Virus record (IMG/VR): IMGVR_UViG_3300030061_003765
Coordinates: 1-41,364 of that record
Direction: 5' to 3' (one strand)
DNA from: a virus
Length of the DNA stretch: 41,364 nucleotides
Part shown: in pieces, positions 8,194-40,383 of the stretch
Position numbering within the stretch: the first letter of the stretch is position 1
Layout: the number at the start of each line of letters is the position of its first letter
Program-made: the position numbers and the translations under genes
Notes under the pieces: model-generated
The model's database searches: none
The model's input: only the letters and a program-made list of their open reading frames with translations
What the model was told of the DNA's origin: nothing

Positions 8194-8694
8194 ATGGAAT
8201 CAATTTTAGTTTTAAATAATGATTACACCCCTATTAATGTTACAGGATTAAATAGAGCTTTTAAATTAGTTTATCTAGGGAAAGCTGAGGTTGTTGAGTC
8301 TAATGATGATAAACCTATTATTACTAGTGTTAAGATTTTTAAACGTCCTACTATTATAAGACTATTAAATTATATTACTGTTCCATTTAGGAAGGTAACT
8401 TTAAATAGAGAAAATATTTTTAAAAGAGATGGATATCATTGCCTATATTGTGGTGATAGAGACCGTGATAAATTAACTATAGATCATGTTATACCTAAAT
8501 CAAAGGGTGGAAAAAATACTTGGAAAAACTTAGCTACTTGTTGTAGATCTTGTAACGTAGAAAAAGATAATAAAACTTTAGAAGAGGCTAATTTAAAACT
8601 TGAATATCAACCTTACAGGCCTACATATCTTCAATTTGTGAAAAACATAAATGTCAATGGGGGTAAAAATTGGTTACCCTATTTATTTTCTTGA
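8194..8694 (+). CDS. HNH endonuclease (166 aa), only plus-strand gene
   Basis: A McrA-type HNH nuclease with an N-terminal domain starting MESILVLNNDYTPINVTGL, found in many bacterial HNH proteins. The catalytic part has zinc ligands Cys83-x2-Cys86 and Cys117-x2-Cys120, the Asp97-His98 pair in IDHVIPKSKGG, and Asn112. These residues suggest an active metal-dependent nuclease. It is the only gene on the plus strand, and its 3' end overlaps the convergent J-domain gene by 16 bases, which fits insertion as a free-standing mobile (homing-like) gene, though it could also have been domesticated for host DNA degradation. Confidence 0.85.
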   Translation: MESILVLNNDYTPINVTGLNRAFKLVYLGKAEVVESNDDKPIITSVKIFKRPTIIRLLNYITVPFRKVTLNRENIFKRDGYHCLYCGDRDRDKLTIDHVIPKSKGGKNTWKNLATCCRSCNVEKDNKTLEEANLKLEYQPYRPTYLQFVKNINVNGGKNWLPYLFS

Positions 8695-11011: not shown

Positions 11012-12160
11012 TTATGGAGCGTCTGTTACTCTATCTCCTGAAACCATATTAACAGAAGTCATAATATACTGAGCATTATCAAAACAATTTAATTCAGTCC
11101 AATTAGCAGCAAATGATCCACTTTCCCCATTTCCTCCAAATTGCCACCAAGCAATACCATTTGCTACTTGTGAATGTTGGTTTAAATCTTTAGGTGTTCC
11201 CCCATTATATAACTCATTAATTTCATCTTGGGTAAATGCTGTATTCCAAAGTGACATATTTTGCAATGAACCTGAGTAAGGATCTATACCTCCTGCTGTG
11301 AAAGTATTAGAAGTTCCTATTTGTGGATCTTGACTACCATTAACACCTATTGTAGTACTAGAACCAAAACTACCACTTCCTCTTTTCACACCATTAACAT
11401 AAATACTTCCTGTACCATCAGAAAATACTGCAAGAACATTTTGCCATGTGTTACTTATAGGAGCTATATTAGTTCTTATTCGCTCTGTACCTTGTCCTAA
11501 TTTTTTTATTTCAAAATTCCATCTTCCTGCTGGTGGAGAACCAGGTGTACCAAAGTTATCATGCATTAAGATATATCCATTACTTGTATTTGCATTATCA
11601 ATTATAGTACCATCATCTGGTGGATCTGATATTAAAGGTTTAGCCCAAACTGATATAGTAAAATTATTAGTTGGTGATAACCCTGCATTTTGTGGGGTTG
11701 AAAATCTTTGTAAAGTTAAAGGAGTAGAATATGGTGGTGGACCTGGGTCAAATAACATAGAAAATTGATTATTATAAACAGGTGGTGGTGTTGAACCTCC
11801 TGCTATTTCTGGTAGGAAAGTTCTATGTTGGTTTAATTCATCTGGGGTTATGTTTATAGTTGTAGCCCCTTCTACAAAAGTTACACTACAATTACCTGCT
11901 CCTCTTATAAAAGATTCAGATATTGGGATTGTAATTCCTGGGGTAAGGTCAAAAGATGAATTACCTTCAGGAACAACTACACCTAACTGGTAATCATTTA
12001 CAACAATCATCTCTCTTGAAATATTTGAGAAGCTTGAAAATGAAGATCCTGATAGATATTTTGGGATTGATGACGGGTATATTTGGGCAGAATTAGGAGT
12101 TATTTCTAAAACTGCATATGAAGAACCTGTGGATTGATTATTAAATGTAAAACTAGCCAT
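11012..12160 (-). CDS. LamG-domain virion protein / tail adhesin (382 aa)
   Basis: Residues about 150-320 form a concanavalin A/LamG (laminin G 3-type) fold: NNFTISVWAKP, GRWNFEIKK, TWQNVLAVFSDGTGSIYVNG, then GSLQNMSLWNTAFTQDEINE with a Pro-Lys ending, a hallmark of these jelly-roll lectin domains. The N-terminal 140 residues are Ser/Gly/Thr-rich and beta-like, with a Pro-rich linker GGSTPPPVYNN. Low Cys and Ser/Asn/Gly richness suit a virion fibre or decoration protein that binds host glycan. It follows a TATAAATAT-type motif 12 bases before its start and is downstream in transcription of the PrkA-YeaH-SpoVR cluster. Confidence 0.75.
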   Translation of the reverse strand: MASFTFNNQSTGSSYAVLEITPNSAQIYPSSIPKYLSGSSFSSFSNISREMIVVNDYQLGVVVPEGNSSFDLTPGITIPISESFIRGAGNCSVTFVEGATTINITPDELNQHRTFLPEIAGGSTPPPVYNNQFSMLFDPGPPPYSTPLTLQRFSTPQNAGLSPTNNFTISVWAKPLISDPPDDGTIIDNANTSNGYILMHDNFGTPGSPPAGRWNFEIKKLGQGTERIRTNIAPISNTWQNVLAVFSDGTGSIYVNGVKRGSGSFGSSTTIGVNGSQDPQIGTSNTFTAGGIDPYSGSLQNMSLWNTAFTQDEINELYNGGTPKDLNQHSQVANGIAWWQFGGNGESGSFAANWTELNCFDNAQYIMTSVNMVSGDRVTDAP

Positions 12161-12172
12161 AAATGTATATAA

Positions 12173-12182
12173 TATAAATATT
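12173..12182 (-). promoter_or_regulatory. AATATTTATA motif upstream of the LamG gene
   Basis: Minus-strand AATATTTATA 12 bases before the ATG of the virion protein. No TTTGGCTT box at class-1 spacing. If this element is a real promoter, its place before a structural gene would fit late transcription. Confidence 0.3.
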
Positions 12183-12197: not shown

Positions 12198-13724
12198 TTA
12201 CATCATTCCATAATGAGATATTTCATCCACACGTCCTTCTTCATCTTCACTAATTAAATAAACTGGGTAGTTCCAAAGTTGGGCTATATTATAAACAACA
12301 TCATCCGCCTCAATTTCATCTAATCTTAAATTATTTCTTTTATTATGGGTTAAAATTAAACTTCTATCTCCATCTTTATCAAATTCTGTAACTTGAATAT
12401 CTGGTAGGTATCTTTCCCTATTGTATTGTTTTGATAAGGTCTCTATAATGTTTTTATATCCTTCTTCATCATGTATTGAAGATATATTATATTCCTTAGA
12501 TTTTTCAATGTCCGTTACTTCAAACAATTTCATATCCCTAATTACCTTAGGAGATAAATATTGTGATACAAATGAATCATCTCTATAATTAGCTGCTGCA
12601 TATATTATTTCTTTTCTCCAATCTTTACCTATTAATTCAGGAAACCATTTTTTATCTTCTTCTGTTGGATTTTCACACATTCTTTTTATATCCATAAAAA
12701 TATTAAATCCCATAGTATAAGGATTAATACCTGAGTAATAATCACTGTTGTATGCAGGTTGTGTTATAACACTTGTATGATGTTTTATAAACTCTAACAT
12801 AAAACCTTCACTTAAATATCCTTTATCATATAAACTATTAACTATATAATAATGGGAAAAAGTAGCGAATCCCTCATTAATCATTTTAGTTTGAGCTTGT
12901 GGATAAAAATATTGAGACACTTTTCTACAAATTCTAACAATTTCCTTTTTCCATGTTGGTAATGATGGAGAATGTTTTTCAATGAAATATAAAATATTTT
13001 CTTCAGGTTGGCTAGGATGTATATTTCTTTTTCTTCTTTTTTTCTTTTTGGATTTATAATTAGGAATAGTTTCCCATAAGGGGTTGTAATCTTTTCTTTC
13101 AAATTCTAAAGCCTCTAAAAATCTTTTTTTTTCTTTTTCTGGGGAGAGTTTTGTTGGTTTTTTATATTTGTCAACCCCATAATCTTGAATGGCATGACAT
13201 GCATCTAGTACTTCTTCTACAGTTTCAGGACCATATATTTCTTCACATTTTAATATATAATCTCTAGCAAATTTCATATAAGCAACAATAGTATCAGCAT
13301 TGGTCCATTGTTTAAACATATAATTATTTTTGAAAAAATGATTGTGTCCCATTCCGGCATGAGCAATAACTAATAACATCAAGCATGTAGTATTATCCTC
13401 CATATTATAAGAAATGCAAGGGTTTGAGTTTATAATCATTTCATAACTTAATCCCATTTGTCCTCGCTTATATGCTGATTGTTGTTGAGAAAAATTTTTA
13501 CCAAATGACCAATGGGGGTATGATATTGGCAGACCTATTAATGACATTGCATCTAATAATTGTTCAGATGTGACTACTTCATATTGGTTAGTATAAATGT
13601 CTATATTTAGTTCTTCTTTTGCTATTATCTCGCACAGTTTGTCTGCTTCCTCTAAGGCTTCAAAAGTCCATTCAGATTTATCAAATAAATCTTTATAATA
13701 TTCCTTAGATTTTAATTTAGACAT
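12198..13724 (-). CDS. spoVR: SpoVR family protein (508 aa), YcgB-like
   Basis: A full-length SpoVR homologue (E. coli YcgB is about 510 residues). Family features are visible: SYPHWSFGKNF, RGQMGLSYEMIINSNPC, and the VIAHAGMGHNHFFKNNYMF block rich in His and Asn, followed by a long helical region. SpoVR proteins are needed for spore cortex formation in Bacillus and belong to the PrkA/YeaH/YcgB stress group in other bacteria; their biochemistry is unknown. The frame is open to 13778, but I chose ATG 13724 (MSKLKSKEYYKDLFDK), which overlaps the YeaH stop by 8 bases and matches where the family homology begins. Confidence 0.9.
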   Translation of the reverse strand: MSKLKSKEYYKDLFDKSEWTFEALEEADKLCEIIAKEELNIDIYTNQYEVVTSEQLLDAMSLIGLPISYPHWSFGKNFSQQQSAYKRGQMGLSYEMIINSNPCISYNMEDNTTCLMLLVIAHAGMGHNHFFKNNYMFKQWTNADTIVAYMKFARDYILKCEEIYGPETVEEVLDACHAIQDYGVDKYKKPTKLSPEKEKKRFLEALEFERKDYNPLWETIPNYKSKKKKRRKRNIHPSQPEENILYFIEKHSPSLPTWKKEIVRICRKVSQYFYPQAQTKMINEGFATFSHYYIVNSLYDKGYLSEGFMLEFIKHHTSVITQPAYNSDYYSGINPYTMGFNIFMDIKRMCENPTEEDKKWFPELIGKDWRKEIIYAAANYRDDSFVSQYLSPKVIRDMKLFEVTDIEKSKEYNISSIHDEEGYKNIIETLSKQYNRERYLPDIQVTEFDKDGDRSLILTHNKRNNLRLDEIEADDVVYNIAQLWNYPVYLISEDEEGRVDEISHYGMM

Positions 13725-14988
13725 TTTTTGATTTTTTGTTAAATAATTTTTGAAATACAGGCCAAATCTCACTTTCATTCATTACTTTTTGAGAAGCAAA
13801 ATGAGGTGTTGAGTCTGAGATTTTTTGATAATATGAATGTAATTTACTTTGATTTGCCCATCTACTAATTTCTAAATAAGCAAAATATCTAACATTTGGT
13901 AAAATTTCTTGTTGAACTATCTCGCATGATTTGGTAGCATCTGTGTAATCCCAAACATCACCATCTGATGCTTGTGTTACATATATATTCCAATTTAGGG
14001 TTGAGTACCTTTCTTTTATTATACTACTAGTTAAATCTAAAGCATTTGCTACAATTGTACCTCCAGTTTCTCTAGAATTAAAAAACTCATCTTCATCAAC
14101 CTCTTTAGCTTCAACATGATGTCTTATAAATACTAATTCTATTTTTTCATATTTTTTATGTAAAAACATATATAGTAAAATAAAAAATTTTTTAGCTATA
14201 GTTTTTTCATGTTCACCCATTGAAGCTGATACATCCATAACACAAAACATTACTGCTTTTGTTGAAGGGTCAGCTTCTATTTCAAAATTATTATACCTTA
14301 AATCAACATCATCTAAGAATGGAATTGAATTTTGTTGGATTTTTAACTTTTTAATTTGTTCTTCTAAATCTAAAATTAAATCTTTATCAGTTGTATTTTG
14401 GATTTGTTCCTCTAATTCTTTTATTTTTTTAGCATAAATGGATTTTATACCTATTTTTCTAGCTAGTGAATTCTTAATTGATGTTGGGATATTAAGCCTT
14501 GATGGGGTTGAGTCCTTAGTATGACCTTTTCTTTTTAATTTTTCTTCAACTAGTTCTTCAACTTCTTTTTGTAATAAATCTGGTAGTTCTAAATCTTCAA
14601 AGAAATATTTTAGAAATTCCTCTCTATCTAATTCAACATAGAACTCATCTTCACCCAAGCCCTCATTACTTCCTTGTCTTCCATCTCCACCACTACCTCC
14701 ATTTTGTTGTGGTTTTTTTACTTTATCTCCTTTTTGGAATTGATCATTTCCAGGACTAATATATTTCTTATCTCCTGTACTATTGTCATATCTGAATTTG
14801 GGTTCTTTTATACCTTTAATTGGAACCTTTACTTTACCACTTCCAGTGGCCATATCTTCAATACTACCCTTAGAGATTGTTCTAGGTAGAGCTTTTCTTA
14901 TTTTATCCTCAACCCTTTTTATAAATTTTCTCTTATTCCCAGTGGATTTTCCTTTAAAATTTTTCCTTCTATCAACTATATGACCCAT
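13717..14988 (-). CDS. yeaH: DUF444 / YeaH-like vWA protein (423 aa)
   Basis: A DUF444 protein. Residues 1-40 are basic (GHIVDRRKNFKGKSTGNKRK), followed by a Gly-rich low-complexity region at about 95-115, a coiled-coil-like segment at about 185-220, and a C-terminal vWA domain with the MIDAS motif Asp252-x-Ser254-x-Ser256 (VMDVSASMGEHEK). In bacteria YeaH is encoded between PrkA and SpoVR/YcgB and works with them; the three form a stress-response module of unclear mechanism. Its 3' end overlaps the SpoVR start by 8 bases. All MIDAS residues are intact. Confidence 0.9.
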   Translation of the reverse strand: MGHIVDRRKNFKGKSTGNKRKFIKRVEDKIRKALPRTISKGSIEDMATGSGKVKVPIKGIKEPKFRYDNSTGDKKYISPGNDQFQKGDKVKKPQQNGGSGGDGRQGSNEGLGEDEFYVELDREEFLKYFFEDLELPDLLQKEVEELVEEKLKRKGHTKDSTPSRLNIPTSIKNSLARKIGIKSIYAKKIKELEEQIQNTTDKDLILDLEEQIKKLKIQQNSIPFLDDVDLRYNNFEIEADPSTKAVMFCVMDVSASMGEHEKTIAKKFFILLYMFLHKKYEKIELVFIRHHVEAKEVDEDEFFNSRETGGTIVANALDLTSSIIKERYSTLNWNIYVTQASDGDVWDYTDATKSCEIVQQEILPNVRYFAYLEISRWANQSKLHSYYQKISDSTPHFASQKVMNESEIWPVFQKLFNKKSKNV

Positions 14989-15013
14989 ATCTTATGTAAT
15001 TCAATAATAAGAA

Positions 15014-16939
15014 TTATTGACGAGAACGATGTCTTAACCACCAACTAATTACAAGTTCTACTTGCTTCTTAGTATAGCCTCTTTCTTTCATTCTTTTTAC
15101 AAAATCTTGATGTTTTTTATTATCTTCTTTACTTGATTTGGTACCAAATGAAATTACAGGAAGTAATTCTTCAGTATTTGAAAATAATCTTTTTTCTATT
15201 ACACTTTTAATTTTCTTATATGATGTCCATTTAGGTGCTTCACCATTATTATTAGCTTTATGTCTTAAAAAGAAATTTACTACTTCATTTCTAAAGTCTT
15301 TAGGATTGGCTATTCCTGCTGATTTTTCAATTTTTTCTAATTCTTCATTCAATGCTTGTCTATCATAAATTTCACCAGTATCTGGGTCTCTAAAATCAGT
15401 ATCATTCATCCAACAATCAGCATGTAAAACGTATTTATCAAATATATTTTGACCATATTCATGGTATGAATCAATATATGCTTTTTGTATTTCATCTCCA
15501 ATAAACTCAGCATACTTAACTGCTAATACAGATTTGATAATATCTAAATATTTTTCTTCTTTGTCTTTTGGGAACTGTTGTCTTATAATTTCTTGTTCTA
15601 AAATATATAATAAATGAACTGGGTTTGCTGCTATTTCTGTTTGATCATAATTAAATACTTTAGATAATATTTTAAAGGCAAACCGTGTTGAAATTCCTTC
15701 CATCCCTTCAGTTACACCTGCAGTTTCCCTATATTCGAAAATTGATTTTGCATTTGGATCTAATTCTTTTAAATTTTCTCCATTGTATACTCTCATTTTA
15801 GAAACTAATTTACTATTCTGAGGTTCTACCAAACGACTCATTACTGTGAATTGAGATAGTATATCTAGTGTTTTTGGTGAGCATGGTGCTTTTGATAATG
15901 AGCTACCATTAATTAATTTTTCATATATCTTAATTTCTTCATCTACTTTTAGACAATATGGTACTCTAATCATATAAACCCTATCTAAAAATGCTTCATT
16001 TTTCTTATCATTTGAAAATTTCTCCCATTCACTTTCATTTGAGTGAGCTAGTATAATACCATTAAAAGGAATGGCACCAATTGGTTCAGTGCCCTTATAA
16101 TTTTTTTCTTGAGTTGCAGTTAATAATGGATGTAATACTTTAATTGGTGCCTTAAACATCTCAACAAATTCCATTATTCCTTGATTTCCTAAACATAAAC
16201 CTCCTGAATATGAATAAGCATCTGAATCACTTTGTGAGTGGTCTCCTAATTTTCTAATATCTACTTTACCTACTAGGGTTGAAATATCTTGATTATTTTC
16301 ATCTCCTGGTTCTGTTTTGGAAACACCTTTTTGGTCTAATATTGATGGGTGTAAAGTTACTACTTTAAATTTTGTTATATCCCCATTTACTTCTTTTAAT
16401 CTTTTAACCGCCCATGGTGACATACAGTTAGGAACATACCTTGAAGAAATTCCATATTCTTCTTCTAATTCATTTTTATGATCACAAAATAATCCTAATG
16501 GTGATTCTAGAACTGGGGAAATTTCATCCCCACATTTTAAAACATAGATTGGTTCTTCTTGAATTAATTTTTTTAAACATTCAGCAAGTGATGATTTAGC
16601 TGAACCTACAGGTCCCATTAAGTATAATATTTGCTTAGATTCTTCTAATCCTTGAGCAGCATGTTTAAAGAATGAAACAATATTATCAATTGTACCTTCC
16701 ATCCCATAAAAATCTTTAAATGATGGGTATACTTTAATTTTTTTATTACCATGTATTCTACTAAGTCTTGGATCGTTTTTAGTATCTATTATTTTTGGTT
16801 CTCCAATTGCTTTTAAAATTCTTTCAGAGGGAGAAGAATATAAAGTAGGGTCTGTTGAACATTGCTTTAAATAACTTGATAATGTAATTTCTTTCTTATC
16901 AACTTTAAAATCATTTTTTATTTTGTTTAATAGACTCAT
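15014..16939 (-). CDS. prkA: PrkA-type serine protein kinase (641 aa), YeaG-like
   Basis: Full-length PrkA (E. coli YeaG is 644 residues). An N-terminal AAA+ region carries the Walker A GPVGSAKS at 109-116, with FYGMEGTIDNIVSFF just before it, as in the family; the C-terminal half contains the kinase/PrkA domain (about 440-640). PrkA has AAA ATPase and serine kinase (and possibly Lon-like protease) activity reported in Bacillus, where it controls sporulation and stress through other proteins. It is followed by DUF444 and SpoVR in the canonical order. A TATAAATAT motif (16952-16961) lies 12 bases before the start. Confidence 0.92.
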   Translation of the reverse strand: MSLLNKIKNDFKVDKKEITLSSYLKQCSTDPTLYSSPSERILKAIGEPKIIDTKNDPRLSRIHGNKKIKVYPSFKDFYGMEGTIDNIVSFFKHAAQGLEESKQILYLMGPVGSAKSSLAECLKKLIQEEPIYVLKCGDEISPVLESPLGLFCDHKNELEEEYGISSRYVPNCMSPWAVKRLKEVNGDITKFKVVTLHPSILDQKGVSKTEPGDENNQDISTLVGKVDIRKLGDHSQSDSDAYSYSGGLCLGNQGIMEFVEMFKAPIKVLHPLLTATQEKNYKGTEPIGAIPFNGIILAHSNESEWEKFSNDKKNEAFLDRVYMIRVPYCLKVDEEIKIYEKLINGSSLSKAPCSPKTLDILSQFTVMSRLVEPQNSKLVSKMRVYNGENLKELDPNAKSIFEYRETAGVTEGMEGISTRFAFKILSKVFNYDQTEIAANPVHLLYILEQEIIRQQFPKDKEEKYLDIIKSVLAVKYAEFIGDEIQKAYIDSYHEYGQNIFDKYVLHADCWMNDTDFRDPDTGEIYDRQALNEELEKIEKSAGIANPKDFRNEVVNFFLRHKANNNGEAPKWTSYKKIKSVIEKRLFSNTEELLPVISFGTKSSKEDNKKHQDFVKRMKERGYTKKQVELVISWWLRHRSRQ

Positions 16940-16951
16940 GGGTATTTTTTA

Positions 16952-16961
16952 TATAAATATT
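16952..16961 (-). promoter_or_regulatory. AATATTTATA motif upstream of prkA
   Basis: Minus-strand AATATTTATA 12 bases before the prkA ATG, within the short gap 16940-16981; no class-1 TTTGGCTT box at the 20-base spacing. If functional it would drive the prkA-yeaH-spoVR operon. Confidence 0.3.
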
Positions 16962-16981
16962 ATAAGTTAGGGTTGAAATAA

Positions 16982-17128
16982 TTATTTTTTTGCTTCTTTA
17001 TCTAATTGGATTTCTAAAGATAACATATAACAAAAATCTGTAATAAAATAGGGGTCTGATTTTATTAAAAATATAAGATCATCATTAGAAAAATCATTTA
17101 GAATTTCTTTAAATCCTTTACTTAGCAT
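16982..17128 (-). CDS. Hypothetical small protein (48 aa)
   Basis: ATG at 17128, TAA at 16982; begins MLSKGFKEILNDFSNDDL and is acidic with a hydrophobic middle. It overlaps the upstream gene by 11 bases, supporting translational coupling. No family recognised. Confidence 0.5.
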   Translation of the reverse strand: MLSKGFKEILNDFSNDDLIFLIKSDPYFITDFCYMLSLEIQLDKEAKK

Positions 17129-17426
17129 TTTTATTTTTTAAATAAGCTATTGCTTCTTTTATTTTAACACAATCTTCATATTTTTCTTCCTCCTCATACC
17201 TATTTAAACTTTCTGTTAAAGTATGACAGAAATCATTTCTATCAATTGTAACATCATATATAGCATCCTCATCTAAAGATATTATACTTAAAGCATGGTG
17301 ATGTCTTTTTTTTCCTTTAAGATTTTTTAATATTGTTGAGACTAAAGCTTCTGAGATTCTGAAATCTCCATTTTTAAGCATTGTTTCAAATTCTTCAGCA
17401 TTTTTAACTTCAAATTCTCTAGGCAT
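17118..17426 (-). CDS. Hypothetical protein (102 aa)
   Basis: Soluble, mostly helical, with a His-rich stretch (KKRHHHALSI) near the middle and a C-terminal charged helix (RYEEEEKYEDCVKIKE) resembling a UVR-like dimerisation helix. I do not recognise the family. Start at 17426 in the AGTTATG context; 2 bases from the preceding gene. Confidence 0.6.
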   Translation of the reverse strand: MPREFEVKNAEEFETMLKNGDFRISEALVSTILKNLKGKKRHHHALSIISLDEDAIYDVTIDRNDFCHTLTESLNRYEEEEKYEDCVKIKEAIAYLKNKNAK

Positions 17427-17656: not shown

Positions 17657-18301
17657 TTATTTATAACTTACAAGATTATAAGGATCATCATCATCTATTT
17701 TATCACCATCTAATCCTAATTCTTTTAAACGTTGCATATGATAATCATCTAATTCAAAATTAATAGCTTCTGTTGTATTATTTAATGGAACATGGTCTTC
17801 TAACTGTTGAATATCTTTTTCAGTAAATACATTATCAATATGAAGAAAATAACAATTATAACATAAAAAATGAATATTTTCCTTATTATAGTTTTTTTTA
17901 TTTTTGTCTTTAAAGTTTAATATAAGGGGAACTTTATAATCTGTTACCCTTCTTTCTTTAAAACCACATTCACTACATTCTTCCTCTAAATATCCTTCTG
18001 AAATTAATTTATATTTTATTTTTTCAGGGGAAAATGAAGATGCATCAACTCTACCTTCTATTATATCTAATAAAGCAGGTTCTTTGCCTTTTGATGATAA
18101 AAATTTAGGTATACCTTTTCCTGATTGGTTTTTATGTTTATCAAATAAAGTTTGTCCTGTTTCTTCATCCTTGTATAATTTCATATACCTTTTAAGATGA
18201 TGGTAGGAACAATTTAAATATCTAGCTGCTGCTTTTACTGATTTTGTTTTATTCATAGCAGCTAAACACATTTCTTTACTTATGGGTTTAGCAGCGGGCA
18301 T
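17657..18301 (-). CDS. HTH protein with HNH-like zinc fold (214 aa)
   Basis: Residues 11-42 look like a helix-turn-helix (NKTKSVKAAARYLNCSYHHL). The middle holds two CxxC pairs, Cys109/Cys112 and Cys147/Cys150, framing a region like the zinc-stabilised HNH fold, but the catalytic His/Asp positions are replaced (LILNFKDKNKKNY where nucleases have LxxDHxxG). So it is probably a DNA-binding protein with a decayed HNH domain, perhaps a transcription regulator. The C-terminus is acidic (DGDKIDDDDPYN). Confidence 0.5.
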   Translation of the reverse strand: MPAAKPISKEMCLAAMNKTKSVKAAARYLNCSYHHLKRYMKLYKDEETGQTLFDKHKNQSGKGIPKFLSSKGKEPALLDIIEGRVDASSFSPEKIKYKLISEGYLEEECSECGFKERRVTDYKVPLILNFKDKNKKNYNKENIHFLCYNCYFLHIDNVFTEKDIQQLEDHVPLNNTTEAINFELDDYHMQRLKELGLDGDKIDDDDPYNLVSYK

Positions 18302-20344: not shown

Positions 20345-22747
20345 TTATATATATTTTATTCTATTAAACATATTCTCCCTTTTTCCTCCATCCATTTCAG
20401 TACAAATTATTTTAGAATATCTACATATTAATTCAAATATAGAACTTTGATATCCTATATTTATTTTAGCTTTTGATCTAATATATAATTGAATTCTGAG
20501 AGGAGTGTTTATTTTATTAAAATCTAAATTAACTTTTACATATTTTGAAAAGGGTGTATCTTTAATATCAACTCCCCCGTAATAAACATATTCCAAAGGA
20601 AACCTTTTTAATTCTGTTATAATACTATCATCTCTATAATCCCCCCAAAATTCTCCTTTTTTAAGTTGGCTATTAGAACATATAAACCCCCCAAATTCTT
20701 TATTTCCAAAATATTTTTTAATAATCTTATCACCTTCTTTTATTTCTTCCTTACTAAAATATATCTCAGGTTCATAATTAATACATTCTTCTTCCTTAAA
20801 ACCCCAAAAAAGTAACATCTGTTTAATTAAAGAAGTATATTCATCTTCATAAATTCTATAATGGTCATGAAATACTTCCCCTTTTATATTATCCACAAAA
20901 TCATCTACATAAGGGTTATTTTGAAAGATTCTTTGAACATTTTTTTCAGGGTTGGGCCAATGTTTCCAACTTTCACTTTCTCCAAATAGAGTTTTAATCA
21001 TTTTTTCACTAGGAAGGTATACTTTACAATTAGGGTATTTTTCTTTAAGTAATCTAGGGAATGATGAGATTATCCCCCAATCTCCTAACCCATTACATAA
21101 TCTCATTATCATAAATTCCTCTTTTTGGATATATTCATCTGGGATTAGCATTGGGTTAGACTTATGCCAACCTAGATTTTTAGTAGGGCCTAGGTCATGT
21201 ATATTATTATCATATAATCTTAAGAAATGAGGGGGAGGTGTTGATGATTGTTTATTTCGGTATAGGCTTAAATCCACTATAGATGAAGTGTCCCTAATAT
21301 TATTACATTTTATAAAAGATAAAATTTCAGTGAGGATTTTATTATTACTACTGATTAAATCTTTATGATTTACAATTAAACATTCAGGTGAAATATATTT
21401 ATGAGTAATATTATAGATACTATCTGAGTGGGATTTATTTAAATTTTGAGCTTTTGATAATGATACTGTACATTCTTCTTTATCTCTAGTACAAAAAATA
21501 AAATAATACTCATATAAACCCTCACAGACAGCTTTAAGGAAGGGTTGAAAAAAAGTTAATCTTGGATCTTTAATAAGCATTTTTTTATTGTTTAAAAATT
21601 CACTTTTGATTAATTGTCTATATCTTTTAACATGATCCTCTGTGTATTTCATCTTAATAAGTTTAAGACTATCCCAAGAACAGTTATTAAAATCTAATAA
21701 TTCATTATGAAAATCATGGAAAGAATTATTCTCAAAGTATCCATTTGGATTTTGCCAATTTTTATCTTGATTTTTATTTATTCCTATTTTAAAACCATTT
21801 TCAATCAAACAATTAGATAGTAAAGATGTACCACTTCTATGCATTCCTATTAAAAACACAACCTTTGGAATATCATTAAGTTTTTGAATATTACTATTAG
21901 TATATATACCCTCTTCTGTGGAGAGTTGTATAGGCATGAAAAGAGAATGTTTAATATCCTTTAAGTTATAATTATCCCTAACTGTATCACCACGGTTGAA
22001 GAAATTGATTCTCCCTCCAATTTGGTTGTTTTGATCACTCCAATATGGGAATTGTAAGTCATAATTATCATACTCTACGTCTAAATAATCCTTATGTTCT
22101 ATATCAGACAAAGTAAATAAATGTGAAAAAGTTAATTGATAATATCCCCCCATATAACTATTTTTTTGAGATTGCCAATTAAAATTAGGGTCAACCAAAT
22201 TATCTATTTTATTTAACCATTTTCTTGGGTTCCCCTCCCATTGGGGGTTGGAATATAATTTATTCAAAGTAATAGAGCTCATGAAAGCTACCCCTTCCCA
22301 ATGAATAGGATACCCTCTATTACTATAGTTTTTTGATCCTTGAACTAAGGAACATAATATTCCTATATTATCTTTAAATTTATATTGATAGCAATGGATT
22401 AAAATTCTATCAAATAGATCCATCCCAGCACAATAATCATCCTCTATAAAAATATAATAATCAAATTTGTCTTGGTATTTTTCATAGGCTTTTAAAAACT
22501 GTCCCCCTGAGTATCCATAATTTTCACATTCTATGATTTCAATTGGGATGGTGGTATTTTTATCAAAGTCATAATAACCTTTAAATAACTCTTCTGATTT
22601 TGGTTTCATTATAGTTATTTGGGATACACTACTTTCTAATTCTTTTAATTTATTTAAATGGAAAATTAATGTATCTTTTGGAAATGGGTTTGTGTGTTTT
22701 CTCTTATTTACACCATTATATGTAGCTATAACATAGTTTATCTTCAT
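20345..22747 (-). CDS. Three-domain glycosyltransferase-sulfotransferase-GT-B fusion (800 aa)
   Basis: Residues 1 to about 290 are a GT-A domain (INYVIATYNG, GYSGGQFLKAY near 78-87, IEDDY at 101-105 as DxD). Residues about 296-497 are a sulfotransferase: GMHRSGTS at 301-308 is the PAPS phosphosulfate loop, and IKDPRL at 392-397 is the second conserved block. Residues about 545-800 resemble a GT9/heptosyltransferase-like GT-B domain (MRLCNGLGDWGII, FPRLLKEKYPNCKVYLPS). One protein could add a sugar, sulfate the glycan and extend it. The sulfotransferase puts a sulfated glycan among the likely products. It overlaps the upstream methyltransferase gene by 4 bases. Confidence 0.7.
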   Translation of the reverse strand: MKINYVIATYNGVNKRKHTNPFPKDTLIFHLNKLKELESSVSQITIMKPKSEELFKGYYDFDKNTTIPIEIIECENYGYSGGQFLKAYEKYQDKFDYYIFIEDDYCAGMDLFDRILIHCYQYKFKDNIGILCSLVQGSKNYSNRGYPIHWEGVAFMSSITLNKLYSNPQWEGNPRKWLNKIDNLVDPNFNWQSQKNSYMGGYYQLTFSHLFTLSDIEHKDYLDVEYDNYDLQFPYWSDQNNQIGGRINFFNRGDTVRDNYNLKDIKHSLFMPIQLSTEEGIYTNSNIQKLNDIPKVVFLIGMHRSGTSLLSNCLIENGFKIGINKNQDKNWQNPNGYFENNSFHDFHNELLDFNNCSWDSLKLIKMKYTEDHVKRYRQLIKSEFLNNKKMLIKDPRLTFFQPFLKAVCEGLYEYYFIFCTRDKEECTVSLSKAQNLNKSHSDSIYNITHKYISPECLIVNHKDLISSNNKILTEILSFIKCNNIRDTSSIVDLSLYRNKQSSTPPPHFLRLYDNNIHDLGPTKNLGWHKSNPMLIPDEYIQKEEFMIMRLCNGLGDWGIISSFPRLLKEKYPNCKVYLPSEKMIKTLFGESESWKHWPNPEKNVQRIFQNNPYVDDFVDNIKGEVFHDHYRIYEDEYTSLIKQMLLFWGFKEEECINYEPEIYFSKEEIKEGDKIIKKYFGNKEFGGFICSNSQLKKGEFWGDYRDDSIITELKRFPLEYVYYGGVDIKDTPFSKYVKVNLDFNKINTPLRIQLYIRSKAKINIGYQSSIFELICRYSKIICTEMDGGKRENMFNRIKYI

Positions 22748-23295
22748 AAGTTTATGTTTATTCCTGAGATTCCTGGGAAATTATCATTTAATATTTTATA
22801 TTTAGTCTTGGATTTAATGGAATTTATTTTTTTGTTATTGTAAATTTTCATCCATTCTATATTGTCTCTTTCTTTAACCCCCCCTTCAAATAGTATTTTT
22901 TTAGTAGGATATTTTTTATAAATTTTATTTATAATATCTCCATTATTAGAAATATCTAAATGTAACAAATCAAAATCTTCCATTTCTTCTAACCATTTAT
23001 TAAAATCCTTTTTAATTAAAGTTACATATTCATTCAAGTTATAATATTGTAAATTATATTCTACTATATCTTTTATTGAATTTTTATATTGGTAATCTTC
23101 AAATAAATCATATCCTATAATTTCTCCAAACCCATTATCTCTAACTCCCTGAGCTAGGCATACTGTAGAATAACCATATAATAAACCAAAATCAATTATT
23201 TTTTTTGGTTTTAGTTCTCTAACAACATTGTAAATTGTTTCTCCTATATTATTTTGTGAATATGAAGAATAGATATGATTAGGTTTTTGATACAT
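22744..23295 (-). CDS. Class I SAM-dependent methyltransferase (183 aa)
   Basis: A Rossmann-fold methyltransferase similar to the Methyltransf_24 group. Motif I is IIDFGLLYGYST near residue 34, motif II GEIIGYDLF near 58, and the acidic LLHLDIS near 114. It has no target-binding domain of its own. In this cluster it probably O-methylates a sugar or acts on a nucleotide sugar. It overlaps the fusion gene by ATGA. Confidence 0.65.
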   Translation of the reverse strand: MYQKPNHIYSSYSQNNIGETIYNVVRELKPKKIIDFGLLYGYSTVCLAQGVRDNGFGEIIGYDLFEDYQYKNSIKDIVEYNLQYYNLNEYVTLIKKDFNKWLEEMEDFDLLHLDISNNGDIINKIYKKYPTKKILFEGGVKERDNIEWMKIYNNKKINSIKSKTKYKILNDNFPGISGININL

Positions 23296-23297
23296 AA

Positions 23298-23510
23298 TTA
23301 TTCTTCTTTAAATACTTCTATCATTAATACATTCTTATCATTAACCATTAAATAACTACCATCCTTTAAATGAAATTTAGTGAATTGGCCTTGTCTAATT
23401 GTATGAGTATTTACTCCTTCAATTGTTCGTTTTTCACCTTCAATAAAATGAATAATTTTAGTTACCCATTTTCCTTGATTTTTAACTGATGATTCTAAAT
23501 CTACACTCAT
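23298..23510 (-). CDS. Small beta-barrel-like protein (70 aa)
   Basis: I chose ATG at 23510 (MSVDLESSVKNQGKW), which overlaps the aminotransferase stop as TAATG. The frame is open to an ATG at 23531. The short chain is beta-rich (THTIRQGQFTKFHLKDGSYL). No family recognised; perhaps a small accessory to the neighbouring sugar genes. Confidence 0.5.
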   Translation of the reverse strand: MSVDLESSVKNQGKWVTKIIHFIEGEKRTIEGVNTHTIRQGQFTKFHLKDGSYLMVNDKNVLMIEVFKEE

Positions 23511-24700
23511 TACCATCCTTTTTTTATACATTCAACAATATATTCTCTATCTTCTTTTGTTACCCACCATCCAACTGGGATATTTACCAAATGGTCTTTT
23601 ACCCAATCTAATGATGGTAGTTGTGTTTTAAACTCTTTAACACAGGAATGAATATCATTTCTTTCATGAACCTGACTAACTGCTATTCCACACTTTTTCA
23701 TATACTTCATAAAGTCATCTTTACGATCGACAAGTATTGAATAAATCCAGAATGATGATTCCATTCTTGAATCTCTACTAGGAAGACATATTAATGATTT
23801 AAAAGTTCGATCAATCTGCCCTAATTCTTCATCATAATAGGCAGCGTTGTCTTTGTGTTTTTTAACCACCTCTTCATCAACAATCTTTAAATTTTCAATC
23901 CCGATTGTAGCATTAACATCATTCATGTGAAATTTGAATCCCCACTCTGGTATATCTACCTCACATCTAAAATCCTTTCTATCTGAGTCTCTATCAATAC
24001 CATACCATCTTAAAAGTCTAGCTCGTCTGTTAAGCTCTTCATGTGGTAATACTAAAGCACCTCCATCAGCTGTTGTCATATGTTTTATAGCTTGAAAGCT
24101 AAAAGTACATATGTTTCCATGACTGCCTATTGGCTTACCATTAAATTTACTCCCAAATGCATGAGCACAATCTTCTATGATTGCAGGTTTAAATCCAAAA
24201 TGTCTAAATGCTTTATTCTGTATCTCTTTGAGTTTGTCTAAGTCAATAGGATATCCACCCCAATGTACAACAAAGATAACTTTTGTTTTAGTTGTAATCT
24301 TTCTCGCGAGATCATCAAGATCCATATTGAGTGTTCTCTTATCAACATCAACCCATTTGATCTTCATATTGTTAGCTAGAATTGGAAAGTTAGTTGCCGT
24401 GCATGTTAAAGGTGTTGCTAAAACCTCATCCCCATCTTGTATTCCAGGCCAATTAGAATTATATGATGTTGTTCCATCAAATGGTTTTGGTTTTTTTAAT
24501 AAATGTAATGCTAAATGTTCTGCTGATGTAGCTGAATTAACTGTTACAGTGTAAGGGTTATTAAATCGAGGGATTAATAATTTTTCAAATTCATCAACTT
24601 TAGGTCCTTGCCCTATAAAACCAGAATCTAATACTTTACCAACTTCTTCCTTAGCAGTAGGATTCATTTTTACTTTAAATAATGGTATGTTTTTTTTCAT
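23510..24700 (-). CDS. DegT/DnrJ/EryC1/StrS sugar aminotransferase (396 aa)
   Basis: A PLP-dependent aminotransferase of the DegT family that makes amino-sugar nucleotides. The cofactor Lys is Lys206 in SFQAIKHMTTADGG, and Asp177 in IIEDCAHAFG binds the pyridine N. PLTCTATNFPIL and WGGYPIDLDKL are typical. It may supply amino-sugar donors to the glycosyltransferases. Base composition seems richer in G/C than neighbours (for example CTCGCGAG at 24303-24310), hinting at a separate origin. Coupled to the small downstream gene and 4-base overlapped by the upstream GT gene. Confidence 0.85.
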   Translation of the reverse strand: MKKNIPLFKVKMNPTAKEEVGKVLDSGFIGQGPKVDEFEKLLIPRFNNPYTVTVNSATSAEHLALHLLKKPKPFDGTTSYNSNWPGIQDGDEVLATPLTCTATNFPILANNMKIKWVDVDKRTLNMDLDDLARKITTKTKVIFVVHWGGYPIDLDKLKEIQNKAFRHFGFKPAIIEDCAHAFGSKFNGKPIGSHGNICTFSFQAIKHMTTADGGALVLPHEELNRRARLLRWYGIDRDSDRKDFRCEVDIPEWGFKFHMNDVNATIGIENLKIVDEEVVKKHKDNAAYYDEELGQIDRTFKSLICLPSRDSRMESSFWIYSILVDRKDDFMKYMKKCGIAVSQVHERNDIHSCVKEFKTQLPSLDWVKDHLVNIPVGWWVTKEDREYIVECIKKGW

Positions 24701-25320
24701 AGTTTATTATAAAAATCATTTTGTTTTTCTTGTTTTTCTATTGTTTTATCATGAAGTAAACAATATTCATTCTCAGGTGGTAATTGAGACATAACTTCAT
24801 AACCTTCTAATATCTCATGCACTTTATTTTTCCATTTTATTTTATCATTATTTCTATAAATTCTCCATTGGTAATCAGGAAAATTAACCCATCCTTTATT
24901 ATTAACTCTCCAACCCCATTTATGAATATGTTCTTGGGTAAGACCTTCTACAGTATTTATTCGTGGAACTAAAAGAACATCTATTTGTTCATTCATTTTT
25001 AATATACTAGATATATTATTTAATATAAATTTGGTTGGAAGTTCATCAGCATCAATTTGGTATATATAATCCCCACTACACATACCAGTTAAGAAATTTT
25101 TCATATCAGAGAAATGTCCCTTAAATGGATAAGGGAACCAATTAAATTCTCCATTTGTTGATTTAGCTCTAAGGAATTCTTCAACTTTGGGGGAACCATT
25201 AGTAGAATCAAATAGTATTACTATTTCATCCTCTTGGTGTTTATTTTCTAGTAAAAAGCCTATTAGCCTTTGAATTTCATTTAATTCATTACAGACTGTG
25301 ATTGCGTAACTTATTTTCAT
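24697..25320 (-). CDS. Glycosyltransferase family 2 (207 aa)
   Basis: Compact GT-A enzyme. The start MKISYAITVCNELNEI is the usual N-terminus for such enzymes, and YQIDADELPTKFI at about 92-104 contains the DxD metal site. The C-terminal WRIYRNNDKIKWKNKVHE is typical of GT2 small forms. Substrate unknown. A possible promoter at 25327-25358 sits almost at its start. Confidence 0.75.
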   Translation of the reverse strand: MKISYAITVCNELNEIQRLIGFLLENKHQEDEIVILFDSTNGSPKVEEFLRAKSTNGEFNWFPYPFKGHFSDMKNFLTGMCSGDYIYQIDADELPTKFILNNISSILKMNEQIDVLLVPRINTVEGLTQEHIHKWGWRVNNKGWVNFPDYQWRIYRNNDKIKWKNKVHEILEGYEVMSQLPPENEYCLLHDKTIEKQEKQNDFYNKL

Positions 25321-25326
25321 ATAATA

Positions 25327-25358
25327 TGAATATATGAAAATTATTTAATAAAGACAAA
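25327..25358 (-). promoter_or_regulatory. Weak promoter-like TTTG-N20-TATATTCA
   Basis: Minus-strand TTTG (25355-25358), 20 bases, TATATTCA (25327-25334); a one-base mismatch to the class-1 -10 box and no GGCTT. Only 6 bases before the ATG at 25320. May be a chance match in AT-rich sequence. Confidence 0.35.
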
Positions 25359-25379
25359 CTAGTTTTTAATTTTAGTTTA

Positions 25380-27137: not shown

Positions 27138-27847
27138 TTAAATTCTGCTATTGAGTCAAAAAGATTATCAAAAGTAAGTTTATCTAAAGGATTATCATAA
27201 CCTAACCCTCCATTTATTTGGGTACTATAGTATTCATGTAAAATAATATGATTAGATAACTTAAATAATGAACTACTTGGGTAATTAAATTGGCTTTTAT
27301 AATTAACATGGCAAAAAATTGAATAATTTTGGGTTTTGGATTGTAACACTTTATCTAAAACCATTAATTCTTGTTGAACTTGGGTTTTATTTAAACCCAC
27401 ATTTTCAAATTTATTTGTATGAGTATTAATACCAGATCTATAAGATACTATAAATAGTTTTTTTTCGGGGTATTGAAGAAATTTTCTAAATCTCTCAACA
27501 CATCTTATACTATATTGATAATCTTCATCTGTTCTAGGATTTTTATGGTTGAAGAAATTTTCATGATACATTTTATGACCTGCTTGTCTACCTCCATGTT
27601 CTGGGGCTATATCAGCTATATCAATATACTGAGTTTTGTCTAGATAGTGTTTGAAATCTGTTTCAAGAATATGAGCTACCTCTAAAGGGTTTGTAAATAA
27701 CCAATCAAAAGGTAATGCCTCTTTCCTTATTTTACGATCCCACAGTATAGCTGATGAAAAACAGAAACTTCCTAATGGAGCTGCATGTTTAAAAGTTCCC
27801 ATGTAAAATTCACTGTTTGGGGTTATATTTTGATTTTCTTTGTTCAT
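27134..27847 (-). CDS. DUF1796-like protein (237 aa)
   Basis: Shows the features of DUF1796, a papain-like cysteine-peptidase-fold family found near glycan genes: GSFCFSSAIL with Cys29, and the ALPFDWLFTNP block near 44-54. The N-terminal SFC and PFDW motifs are the main hits. Further on, HENFFNHKNP and RCVERFRKFL also recall this family. Function unknown; perhaps a hydrolase or transferase in glycan processing. Overlaps both neighbours. Confidence 0.55.
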   Translation of the reverse strand: MNKENQNITPNSEFYMGTFKHAAPLGSFCFSSAILWDRKIRKEALPFDWLFTNPLEVAHILETDFKHYLDKTQYIDIADIAPEHGGRQAGHKMYHENFFNHKNPRTDEDYQYSIRCVERFRKFLQYPEKKLFIVSYRSGINTHTNKFENVGLNKTQVQQELMVLDKVLQSKTQNYSIFCHVNYKSQFNYPSSSLFKLSNHIILHEYYSTQINGGLGYDNPLDKLTFDNLFDSIAEFK

Positions 27848-29435: not shown

Positions 29436-29437
29436 TT

Positions 29438-31730: not shown

Positions 31731-31760
31731 GTTTATAAATATGATACGTAGGTAATAGTG

Positions 31761-35229: not shown

Positions 35230-36177
35230 CTAAAAATCGCCGCCTAAGCCGCATAATTTTTTATCTTCTTTAAAAGCACAAAAAGTACAATTCCATTTAC
35301 TTGGATTGGGTAGCATTACCTTATCAGTATAACTATTTTCTTTAAAACAATCTTTTATAAAATCATGTATTGCATTTGTTGCTCTAGATCTTTTTATTTT
35401 TCCTGATGGTGGTTCATATAATTGAAATCTTTTTTGTGGGTAATCTCCACCTTCATATACTTTTCTTCTTGTAATAAAAAATTCAATATCAATATTATCT
35501 ACAGGTACATTAAATTGTTCAGCAAAGAATTTTTTGTATAATATAAGTTGAAATTGTTTATCTTCATCTTTTTTAACATAATCTAACTTCCAACCCTTAG
35601 TAGATGTTTTAATATCTATTATTTTAAATTTATTTAATGTTTCATTATACATTACAATATCTAAATAGCCGATAAATAAAACATTAGGGTTTGTGGAAAT
35701 TGGAGGTAATGTTATAGGAGTTTCAATTCCTACTAAATGCCAACCCCGTTTTGAAAAATATTTACCTCTGTTCTTTTTTAAATAATTTAATATTTCAACT
35801 CCATCTTGATAAAACTCACTCAATTCACCTGGATCTGAAAAATGTTGGTTTTTGTTTTTCTTATATTCATCCTGGTAGTGTTCTCTAAGTTTATCTTTTA
35901 ATATTTCTAAAATATCCTCTCTATCAGCTGCTGCCCCACTTTTTTCATACATCACTTGAATATAATGTTGAAATGCTTCATGTAGTGCTTTTCCAAATAC
36001 AGTATGAATACTTGGGGTGTAAACTTTATGACCATCTCTATATTGTAGTGCCCATTGTTTAGGACATTTCTTCCACATTGAATATTGTGAGTATGAAATA
36101 TTCTTTTGATAAGCGTAATTAACCTTTATAGGTTCATAACTTTTTATTTCTTTTACTATAGATGGTAATTTAGGCAT
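35230..36177 (-). CDS. Cas4/RecB-like PD-(D/E)XK nuclease with Fe-S cysteines (315 aa)
   Basis: A PD-(D/E)XK exonuclease of the Cas4/AddB-like group. Visible: KCPKQW with Cys38, a GKALHEAF block with His66, Glu152, Asp173 in GYLDIVM, and the metal-binding Asp188-Ile-Lys190 (IIDIKTSTKG). A C-terminal CTFCAFKEDKKLC gives Cys297, Cys300, Cys309, which with Cys38 would form a 4Fe-4S cluster. The frame opens at a TTG (36204), but ATG 36177 (MPKLPSIVKE) fits better and lies 1 base after the preceding stop. Role in phage recombination or host DNA breakdown is inferred. Confidence 0.8.
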   Translation of the reverse strand: MPKLPSIVKEIKSYEPIKVNYAYQKNISYSQYSMWKKCPKQWALQYRDGHKVYTPSIHTVFGKALHEAFQHYIQVMYEKSGAAADREDILEILKDKLREHYQDEYKKNKNQHFSDPGELSEFYQDGVEILNYLKKNRGKYFSKRGWHLVGIETPITLPPISTNPNVLFIGYLDIVMYNETLNKFKIIDIKTSTKGWKLDYVKKDEDKQFQLILYKKFFAEQFNVPVDNIDIEFFITRRKVYEGGDYPQKRFQLYEPPSGKIKRSRATNAIHDFIKDCFKENSYTDKVMLPNPSKWNCTFCAFKEDKKLCGLGGDF

Positions 36178-36178
36178 T

Positions 36179-36529
36179 TTATTTTTTCCATTTATCTCTA
36201 CCAACTAACAAACCAATTATACCATAATTAGCTACATCTATAAACGTATCTTCCATTCCTTCACCCTTAACAAAATTTCTACCATTAGTTAGTAAATTTC
36301 TTAGTCTTGATATCTTATCTGTTAATCTAATTGCTAATCCTGTTAATGAAAATTTTTTATCATTATCTTTAGTCAAATCTCCTCCTAGTGAAATATTTTG
36401 TAATCCATAATCCATATGTTTAGCTGCAAACATTTTATACATTTCATCTTGGATGTCCTTAAATTCTTTAGATAATTCAGGATATTCTTTTTCAAAAATT
36501 TTAATTATTTCTTTATTTGTCATCTTCAT
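36179..36529 (-). CDS. DUF1599-like protein (116 aa)
   Basis: Shows the DUF1599 (nucleotide modification associated domain 1) pattern: HMDYGLQNISLGG, IRLTDKISRLRNLL, and DTFIDVANYGIIGLLV. These phage proteins are linked to modified bases or nucleotide metabolism, but no catalytic mechanism is known. The upstream acidic gene overlaps it by 17 bases. A phage using modified DNA is possible. Confidence 0.6.
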   Translation of the reverse strand: MKMTNKEIIKIFEKEYPELSKEFKDIQDEMYKMFAAKHMDYGLQNISLGGDLTKDNDKKFSLTGLAIRLTDKISRLRNLLTNGRNFVKGEGMEDTFIDVANYGIIGLLVGRDKWKK

Positions 36530-38486: not shown

Positions 38487-39463
38487 TGTTTATTTTTTAT
38501 TTTATTATACATTGTTATTAAGCAATCTTTGTCTAATTGATTATGTTTTAAATACTTGTCTTTCCATTCTTGAGATTTTTCATTATGATAACTAGGACAT
38601 GAACCATCATATCTCATTTGCCATCTAAATCCTTCTTTTGGAACATAATTATCAACATCTTCTTGAGTAACTGTTAAATCATTTAGTAATAGCCTGCATA
38701 AAAAGTTTTGTTGTTCACAATGAGTTAACATTAATTTACAAAATAACCATTTTAATGGATTATTATTTGAAACTGGTAGTGTATATAGTTGCCAACAAGC
38801 TAAATGGAAGGCATACCCCATATAATAAGCTTTAAATAACGATTTTTGGAATTTATTCCATTTGTCTCTTTTATTATAATGATAACGAGATGTATATTTA
38901 TTATTATTTATAGATTTAAAACCTAAAGATTTACCAATAATAAAATTTAGTCCTAAAGCTATTGGAGTAAATAATAATTGAGTTAATAAATGTAGATTAG
39001 CATATAGTTTTTTATATTTAGTTTTGGTTAAAGATTTAACCCAAAAGTAAAAATCAATAGTCATACTCATTCTTCGAGATAATCTCCATGGGGTTTTCGA
39101 AGCTATTTCATGAAGTTCATCCGTATCTCCATTTACAGCCAATGAAGCAAACGCCATTGTTACTTGGTCTCTTGAAACATCATCCTCACCATGTCTACCT
39201 GTTGCTCTCATAGGTTGATAAAAATCTTTTCTAAAATGGTGCCCACCTTTAACTTTTCTAAAACAACCTAGGATGCCTTCTTTAATTTCAGGATCTTTCC
39301 ATGTTATATAAGCTAACCCAGTTCTCCATAAAGCATCACCCTCACCTAAATTACGTTCACCTTCTCTTTTTCTCCATTCCCAGGCATGTTCATACATCAT
39401 TTTATCATCTGTATGGAATATTTTTTTGGATTCTAAATTACTATATTTAAAAAAAGTGCTCAT
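38483..39463 (-). CDS. Unknown conserved-looking protein (326 aa)
   Basis: Highly helical, rich in Trp, Tyr and His. The first part contains GEGDALWRTGLAYI, DPEIKEGILGCF, GEDDVSRDQVTMAF and RLSRRMSMTIDFYFW, a repeated-helix pattern reminiscent of alpha/alpha toroid proteins; the middle has LLTQLLFTPIALGLNFI, possibly a membrane segment. I do not recognise the family. Located directly between the clamp loader genes and coupled to gp44, so it could act in replication, but this is only context. Confidence 0.6.
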   Translation of the reverse strand: MSTFFKYSNLESKKIFHTDDKMMYEHAWEWRKREGERNLGEGDALWRTGLAYITWKDPEIKEGILGCFRKVKGGHHFRKDFYQPMRATGRHGEDDVSRDQVTMAFASLAVNGDTDELHEIASKTPWRLSRRMSMTIDFYFWVKSLTKTKYKKLYANLHLLTQLLFTPIALGLNFIIGKSLGFKSINNNKYTSRYHYNKRDKWNKFQKSLFKAYYMGYAFHLACWQLYTLPVSNNNPLKWLFCKLMLTHCEQQNFLCRLLLNDLTVTQEDVDNYVPKEGFRWQMRYDGSCPSYHNEKSQEWKDKYLKHNQLDKDCLITMYNKIKNKQ

Positions 39464-40383
39464 ATCACTTGTGGTTTTTTGATTTCCATTATTTTTGCTA
39501 ACGCGCTTGCGATATTAATTTCTTTATCTATTCTAAAGTTTGAATGGTATTGATGTTCATTTAATATTACCGCTACACTTCCCTCTCTACCCTTAGCATA
39601 TTCATTGGCATTATCAAACAGTGATCTATATAATTCTTCAAAGTCTTTAACTCCTGAGTCTGCAATTATTTGCCTTAATTTTCTATAATCTGTTTTTGGA
39701 TTTTTTAATTCTGTTATGACTTGGTTTATATAGTTTGAAGACACTAGTATGGATTCATCTACTATTAACTCATTATCTTTAGTTGATAATTGAATGGTAT
39801 TTAACATCTTTCGTATATCCGGATGATGTTTATTGATAATTGTAGCTAAAACTTTTAAATCGAATTTTGTTTCTTCCTTATTTAATATTGTACTTATATG
39901 TTTTGCTACTTCTTTTTTACTTGGTGGTACTATTTTTAGTACTTGACATCTTGATTGTAGTGGGTCTATTATTCTTTCTATAAAATTACACGTCATAATA
40001 AAACGTGTGGTTCTTGAAAATGTTTCTATTACATTTCTTAGTGATGCTTGCGCTTGAATTGTGAGGAAATCTGCCTCATCGAGTATGACAACTTTAATCT
40101 GTCGAAACGAAGCAGTACTTGAGAAGTTGGTGACTTTATCCCTAATAGTTTCGATCCCACGTTCATCAGAAGCGTTAATGTATAAGTAATCACAGTCCAA
40201 GTTATTAACGATGAGTTTCGCAAGAGTAGTTTTGCCTGTACCAGCGGGGCCATAAAATATGAAGTTTTGAATGTCATCTTGATCTAAATATTTTTGTATT
40301 TGTTTTTTAATATGATCGTTACCTACATATTCAGTAAGGTTTTTAGATCGATATTTTTCTACTAATAATGTATGTTCTTTCAT
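39460..40383 (-). CDS. 44: gp44-like clamp loader AAA+ ATPase (307 aa)
   Basis: The sliding-clamp loader large subunit of T4-like phages, related to RFC small subunits. Walker A GPAGTGKT at 45-52, Walker B VVILDEADF with Asp102-Glu103, and the SRC arginine-finger motif at 144-146 are complete. It works with gp62 to load the clamp at replication forks. The Walker A part is visibly richer in G/C than most of the window. Its start overlaps the SET gene stop by 4 bases. Confidence 0.92.
   Translation of the reverse strand: MKEHTLLVEKYRSKNLTEYVGNDHIKKQIQKYLDQDDIQNFIFYGPAGTGKTTLAKLIVNNLDCDYLYINASDERGIETIRDKVTNFSSTASFRQIKVVILDEADFLTIQAQASLRNVIETFSRTTRFIMTCNFIERIIDPLQSRCQVLKIVPPSKKEVAKHISTILNKEETKFDLKVLATIINKHHPDIRKMLNTIQLSTKDNELIVDESILVSSNYINQVITELKNPKTDYRKLRQIIADSGVKDFEELYRSLFDNANEYAKGREGSVAVILNEHQYHSNFRIDKEINIASALAKIMEIKKPQVI

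Follow-up and report, generated by a model that had tools for sequence, protein, structure and literature searches.

An optional PrkA-YeaH-SpoVR gene cassette in a T4-like phage lineage

The genes for PrkA, DUF444/YeaH and SpoVR constitute an accessory cassette in one T4-like phage lineage: the trio lies intact in one viral genome fragment, and a collinear sibling phage has an exact empty site in its place. Below we describe the genes and their setting, the selection acting on them, a motif that bears on their timing, their relatives in other phages and in cells, and the function that they might serve.

An intact bacterial-type trio on a phage contig

The window analyzed here comprises 41,364 of the 42,688 bases of the IMG/VR record IMGVR_UViG_3300030061_003765. 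Its genes lie nearly all on the minus strand, are tightly packed and have a G+C content of 24-32%. Positions 12198-16939 on the minus strand hold intact genes for PrkA, DUF444/YeaH and SpoVR in the bacterial order (Table 1), and this arrangement, PrkA then DUF444 then SpoVR on a single strand, is that of the PrkA-YeaH-SpoVR operon. An earlier interpretation made from the letters alone (the sequence-only reading) had described three full-length genes in canonical order at this place, and the positions of the open reading frames and the Pfam matches both agree with it; the strengths of those matches exclude chance. It had further held that the trio resembles its surroundings in strand, packing and composition. 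Consistent with this, the three genes are on the minus strand, are packed like the rest of the window and have a G+C content of 0.28-0.29.

Table 1 Features of the window and of the cassette boundaries
Feature	Position	Strand	Evidence or remark
Laminin_G_3/ConA-like lectin gene bounding the cassette downstream	11012..12160	-	Pfam 1.3e-22; G589 homologue directly after the empty site
Second motif copy, ahead of the lectin-like gene that follows the cassette	12171..12182 (approximate)	-	close copy of the PrkA motif
SpoVR/YcgB, 526 aa	12198..13778	-	Pfam SpoVR 4.5e-150, SpoVR_C 3.6e-15
DUF444/YeaH, 423 aa, with a vWA domain whose MIDAS is complete	13717..14988	-	Pfam DUF444 2.6e-147, full model covered
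PrkA/YeaG-type protein of 641 aa: AAA+ ATPase and C-terminal kinase-like domain	15014..16939	-	Pfam AAA_PrkA 8.6e-163, PrkA C-terminal domain 1.6e-67
Late-promoter-like motif AATATTTATAT before PrkA	16951..16962 (approximate)	-	at -21/-20 of the PrkA start
Phage backbone gene (102 aa) on the cassette's upstream side	17118..17426	-	79% identical homologue at G589 154773-155066, beside the empty site
gp47-like exonuclease	35230..36204	-	phrog_69 2.9e-23
T4-type sliding-clamp loader, lineage tracer	39460..40383	-	phrog_168 1.3e-78

All three proteins retain the residues expected of their families. PrkA has both the AAA_PrkA and the PrkA C-terminal domain and carries the Walker A lysine; its K115, R229 and K423 align with K116, R232 and K426 of E. 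coli YeaG, which are needed in vivo in E. coli (PMC4664914). It is 70-72% identical to PrkA of Cytophagales and, over the aligned part, 61% identical to E. coli YeaG. What PrkA does biochemically is contested, the protein having been described as a kinase, as a weak protease or as neither; in a recent study it showed neither kinase nor protease activity and was named an AAA+ ATPase (PMC13001217). The DUF444 protein is full-length, and its complete MIDAS (D252-x-S254-x-S256, T311 and D342) is invariant in 56 aligned copies. Compared with the PDB, its predicted model resembles vWA folds (E 1e-5), MDN1-MIDAS among them. SpoVR has its C-terminal domain and invariant His/Asn/Glu blocks (H140, H145, N152, N301, E302 and H309), and a search of its predicted fold against the PDB gave no convincing match. 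The Walker A motif, intact MIDAS and SpoVR His/Asn blocks reported earlier were thus upheld, the MIDAS and SpoVR residues being invariant in 54-56 aligned copies. The annotated SpoVR start at 13778 creates a 62-nt overlap with DUF444. The true start is probably the in-frame Met19 at 13724, since alignments to most homologues begin at about residue 18-31 and the predicted model has very low confidence for residues 1-19.

The sequence-only reading had made the integrity of the contig a point to be checked, and the contig proved not to be chimeric. Positions 1-41362 of the window recur collinearly in an independent assembly (G001) at 99.8-100% identity, with one small gap near 22.4 kb. The trio also lies amid shared phage genes in two relatives, G004 and G002, with a nucleotide identity of 83-85%. 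Together with the exact empty site in the sibling G589, described next, these contigs rule out a chimera or host contamination.

Presence and absence at one site in a T4-like lineage

The window encodes T4-type replication proteins, a clamp loader and a gp47-like exonuclease, and its relative G004 has a DNA polymerase of family phrog_262. Copies of the clamp loader with 85-91% identity occur in many IMG/VR contigs, and a search of IMG/VR with this gene yielded G589, a sibling of 160,544 bases whose gene order is collinear with the window over most of the window's length. G589 encodes terminase (TerL), portal (gp20), gp23 capsid and baseplate proteins, which the window fragment itself does not; the gp23 search matched none of 14 control genomes. 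The capsid, portal and terminase of this collinear sibling bear out the earlier assignment to a T4-like lineage. Profiles for tail sheath (PF04984) and terminase (phrog_2) gave no match in the short contigs of the window lineage. A phrog_94 "head maturation protease" in G004 was dropped as a hallmark because the profile also matches 12 of the 14 control genomes (ClpP-like).

PrkA is absent from G589, as it is from G594 and G601. Where the trio would lie, G589 has only an intergenic stretch between the homologue of the 102-aa backbone gene and the lectin-like gene, and the two flanks of the window's trio, when joined, align to this empty site at 76% and 69%. Members of the lineage therefore differ in the presence or absence of the trio at the same site. 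In G004 and G002 the trio still adjoins a surface-protein-like gene, and the opposite side is rearranged.

Several other features of these genomes vary. HNH endonuclease-like genes at 8194-8694 and 17657-18301, one of them on the opposite strand, flank the block formed by the lectin gene and the trio; among the contigs compared, the gene at 8194-8694 occurs only in trio-bearing relatives. A large island at 22744-34988 with genes for glycosyltransferases, a DegT/DnrJ aminotransferase and a methyltransferase varies between relatives, and much of the window from 25 to 31 kb has no homologue in G589. The DNA polymerase of G004 is split (L173:13226-16431) into two ORFs about 0.55 kb apart that match residues 14-568 and 565-851 of one family, possibly owing to an intron or a split gene. 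G004 also encodes ribonucleotide reductase and QueE/QueC-like and MazG-like proteins, and GroEL is encoded by both G004 and G002 (L173, L174, L175).

Purifying selection and a late-type motif

The trio is under strong purifying selection. Comparison of the window phage with its two trio-bearing relatives gave dN/dS values of 0.08-0.10 for PrkA, 0.09-0.13 for DUF444 and 0.10-0.11 for SpoVR; the corresponding values were 0.08-0.11 for the clamp loader and 0.14-0.23 for the exonuclease and glycosyltransferases.

PrkA is preceded by a late-promoter-like motif (Table 1), and TAATATTTATA lies about 20-25 nt ahead of PrkA in all three phages (the window phage, G004 and G002). One copy of the motif is left at the empty site of G589. 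Throughout that sibling it precedes 24 of the 77 ORFs between 20 and 110 kb, the structural region, and 2 of the 75 elsewhere (Fisher p 1.8e-6, an optimistic value because the limits were set after seeing the profile). The portal gene is among the ORFs that have it; the 24 ORFs at 0-20 kb all lack it, and at 110-160 kb it is infrequent. Because the motif before PrkA marks structural genes in the sibling, it is probably a late promoter and the trio is probably expressed late. Judged by this sequence motif, the cassette would have the promoter of its own that characterizes a phage moron. An early role in host takeover appears less likely for an optional cassette behind a late-type promoter motif. 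The Bacteroidota promoter TAnnTTTG and the elements TATAAT and TTGACA were not enriched in intergenic regions. Among distinct marine T4-like loci (L022-L081), 10 of 39 have CTAAATA within 60 nt upstream of PrkA against 0.15 expected; this element is not concentrated at structural genes and is therefore silent on timing.

Viral relatives and multiple origins

We scanned IMG/VR once with exact peptide patterns, which limits recovery, and obtained 139 contigs with a PrkA relative. All three genes are present in at least 66 viral loci (of 80 kept), with the same order and strand in 66/66; in cellular loci that have all three nearby, DUF444 and SpoVR are adjacent in 78/79. A gp23 capsid gene was also found in 8 of the 39 trio records checked, most with a terminase, and closer inspection of two marine T4-like carriers confirmed portal and terminase genes. 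Relatives among GenBank phages were three phages of 634-642 kb (46-67% identity), a more distant 595-kb phage, and Thermus phages at about 21-31%.

In the PrkA tree the window clade lies beside Cytophagales (98), with freshwater and huge phages forming the neighboring clade. The marine T4-like phages are placed elsewhere, in clades that adjoin Proteobacteria. The DUF444 and SpoVR trees gave the same broad neighborhood with less resolution. Whether the phage copies form one clade had been raised as a check, and the answer is no: the approximately unbiased (AU) test rejected such a clade and so ruled out a single origin (p = 3.4e-5). With a single origin rejected and similar copies present in many other phages, it seems from these sequences that phages acquired the trio several times. 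Two IMG/VR loci, L021 and L023, group with cells. The YeaG/YeaH genes at the end of the record of the Enterobacter phage LAU1 (L166, MN688132.1) were taken as host chromosome beside an integrated prophage.

A likely Bacteroidota host

Shine-Dalgarno-like sites precede 2-9% of starts in the window lineage; the corresponding figures are 12% for cells of Bacteroidota, 28-29% for marine T4-like phages and 51% for Gammaproteobacteria. The scarcity of these sites and the grouping of PrkA with Cytophagales make a Bacteroidota-type host plausible, in keeping with the sequence-only reading, and we regard a host in the Bacteroidota as likely. A close PrkA was found in 1 of 297 sampled Bacteroidota genomes, namely the anchor itself, indicating that PrkA is rare in this phylum. 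The DegT/DnrJ-type aminotransferase had a best identity of 43% in the Bacteroidota and 40% in the Pseudomonadota samples.

Possible functions of the cassette

AAA+ rings with vWA/MIDAS partners, such as RavA-ViaA, CbbQ-CbbO and midasin, remodel client proteins. By analogy, the simplest reading that we infer for the trio is a three-part remodelling machine that would impose a brake in the infected cell. An intact bacterial-type operon, inserted between two T4-like backbone genes, would be made late in infection; PrkA would form an ATP-driven AAA+ ring with YeaH as its vWA/MIDAS substrate adaptor, and the two would cooperate with, or act upon, SpoVR and client proteins of the host. The outcome would be a cell held in a low-consumption, stress-tolerant state like that of starved bacteria (a "metabolic brake"), and the phage would gain from a slow or starved host that stays intact and energized until virion production is complete. 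In E. coli, YeaG and YeaH work jointly to dampen metabolism in nitrogen starvation; mutants recover more quickly and survive more poorly, and extra YeaG lengthens recovery (PMC4664914, PMC10954441). We put the probability that the trio is a late-acting module of this YeaG/YeaH type, prolonging virion production in slow or starved hosts, at roughly 45%. The sequence-only reading likewise suggested that a phage copy may control host metabolism or dormancy during infection, and this would still be our preferred interpretation. The broader proposal, that several phage lineages independently captured the whole bacterial quiescence machine and redeployed it late to establish a controlled low-metabolism state, would be a viral function new to description, and we hold it more tentatively. 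If the quiescence reading is true, the phage copies provide a route to the targets of the PrkA-YeaH-SpoVR machine.

The main rival to a metabolic brake is a role in assembly. Here the AAA+/vWA pair would act late to remodel a virion or lectin-like protein or to prevent aggregation of virion proteins, with SpoVR as a partner and with host physiology not the target. A late-type motif stands ahead of PrkA and of the adjacent lectin-like gene, as such a machine would lead one to expect, and some relatives encode GroEL. In Thermus phage Lalka8, moreover, a minor head gene and TerL flank the vWA, SpoVR and AAA genes, and the YS40 trio is near the terminase gene. However, the sibling G589, which lacks the trio, has a structural backbone of the same kind, the trio proteins are 61-72% identical to cellular enzymes that have no virion role, and no link between the trio and structural genes is seen in the marine T4-like carriers. 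We therefore consider an assembly role unlikely, although it is the strongest of the alternatives.

An effect of opposite sign is less probable again. The phage copy would interfere with or override the host's brake and keep metabolism active during infection. Many phages inhibit host stress programmes, and with a close PrkA in just the anchor among the sampled Bacteroidota, a phage may bring its own control. Yet if most hosts are without the module there is nothing there to override, and the integrity of every tested catalytic and MIDAS residue makes a dominant-negative copy unlikely. We give little weight to an anti-defence or superinfection-exclusion module: an optional cassette with its own promoter-like motif is typical of such morons, but a late-type motif is a poor fit for early counter-defence and the family has no known defence role. 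That the trio is an artefact or passive cargo (a chimeric contig, host contamination or a neutral hitchhiker) is scarcely credible, for although the LAU1 genes resemble host DNA beside a prophage and L021 and L023 group with cells, the full-length second assembly, the two relatives, the empty site, purifying selection and repeated retention in order all speak against it.

Relation to known systems

What is new is the context, a cassette; the proteins are canonical and viral carriers have precedents. The window trio shares with the bacterial operon (E. coli yeaGH and ycgB; the trios of Cytophagales and Pseudomonas) the same full-length families, order and conserved residues, with 52-72% identity per protein to Cytophagales. 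It differs in being A+T-rich and an optional T4-like phage cassette behind a phage late-type motif, with no known cellular regulation. In the literature that we found, a complete module as an exchangeable phage cassette, maintained by selection, of late type and acquired more than once, is not described.

The sequence-only reading knew of no characterized phage version. As regards occurrence this is too strong, since the trio or parts of it are on record in YS40, in RsoM2USA (ORF28 and ORF30) and as spoVR in marine viromes. A distant trio has been annotated in Thermus phages from YS40 onward: like the window phage, the cultured phages YS40, TMA, phiLo, Lalka8 and Lalka27 have vWA, SpoVR and PrkA-like AAA genes together. 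Their trio differs in its identity (21-31%), its order (vWA-SpoVR-PrkA), its place beside head and terminase genes and its separate lineage, and its vWA protein is short or divergent, unlike the DUF444 protein of the window. The cultured Ralstonia jumbo phage RsoM2USA, which was not among the matches of our phage-collection search, has SpoVR (ORF28) and PrkA (ORF30) two genes apart; in the parts of the report available to us the pair is not recognized as a module and ORF29 is unnamed (PMC8504454). Its host and lineage differ from those of the window phage. In viromes of the Eastern Tropical North Pacific, SpoVR has been reported as the most abundant "sporulation" gene and is treated as a viral auxiliary gene (PMC8940887). 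That study reads spoVR alone, as a spore gene, and mentions neither PrkA nor the PrkA-YeaH-SpoVR module; the module context corrects this reading.

PrkA, YeaH and SpoVR occur widely and are linked to stress phenotypes; what they do jointly is a long-standing question. Independent capture of the intact trio by phages, selection and the apparent tie to late transcription suggest that the trio is one portable unit, useful within a single infection cycle. The question of joint function thus becomes testable with phages that have or lack the cassette, in growing and in starved hosts.

The huge uncultured phages LR756502, LR745206 and LR756504 (634-642 kb) are 61-67% identical to the window in PrkA, 46-51% in DUF444 and 50-58% in SpoVR; they belong to another phage clade and their records are unannotated. 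The synteny of the trio is loosened in these huge phages (L164, LR756502.1) with all three genes retained: in LR756502 roughly 240 kb separate SpoVR from PrkA-DUF444, and LR756504 has extra sequence between the trio genes.
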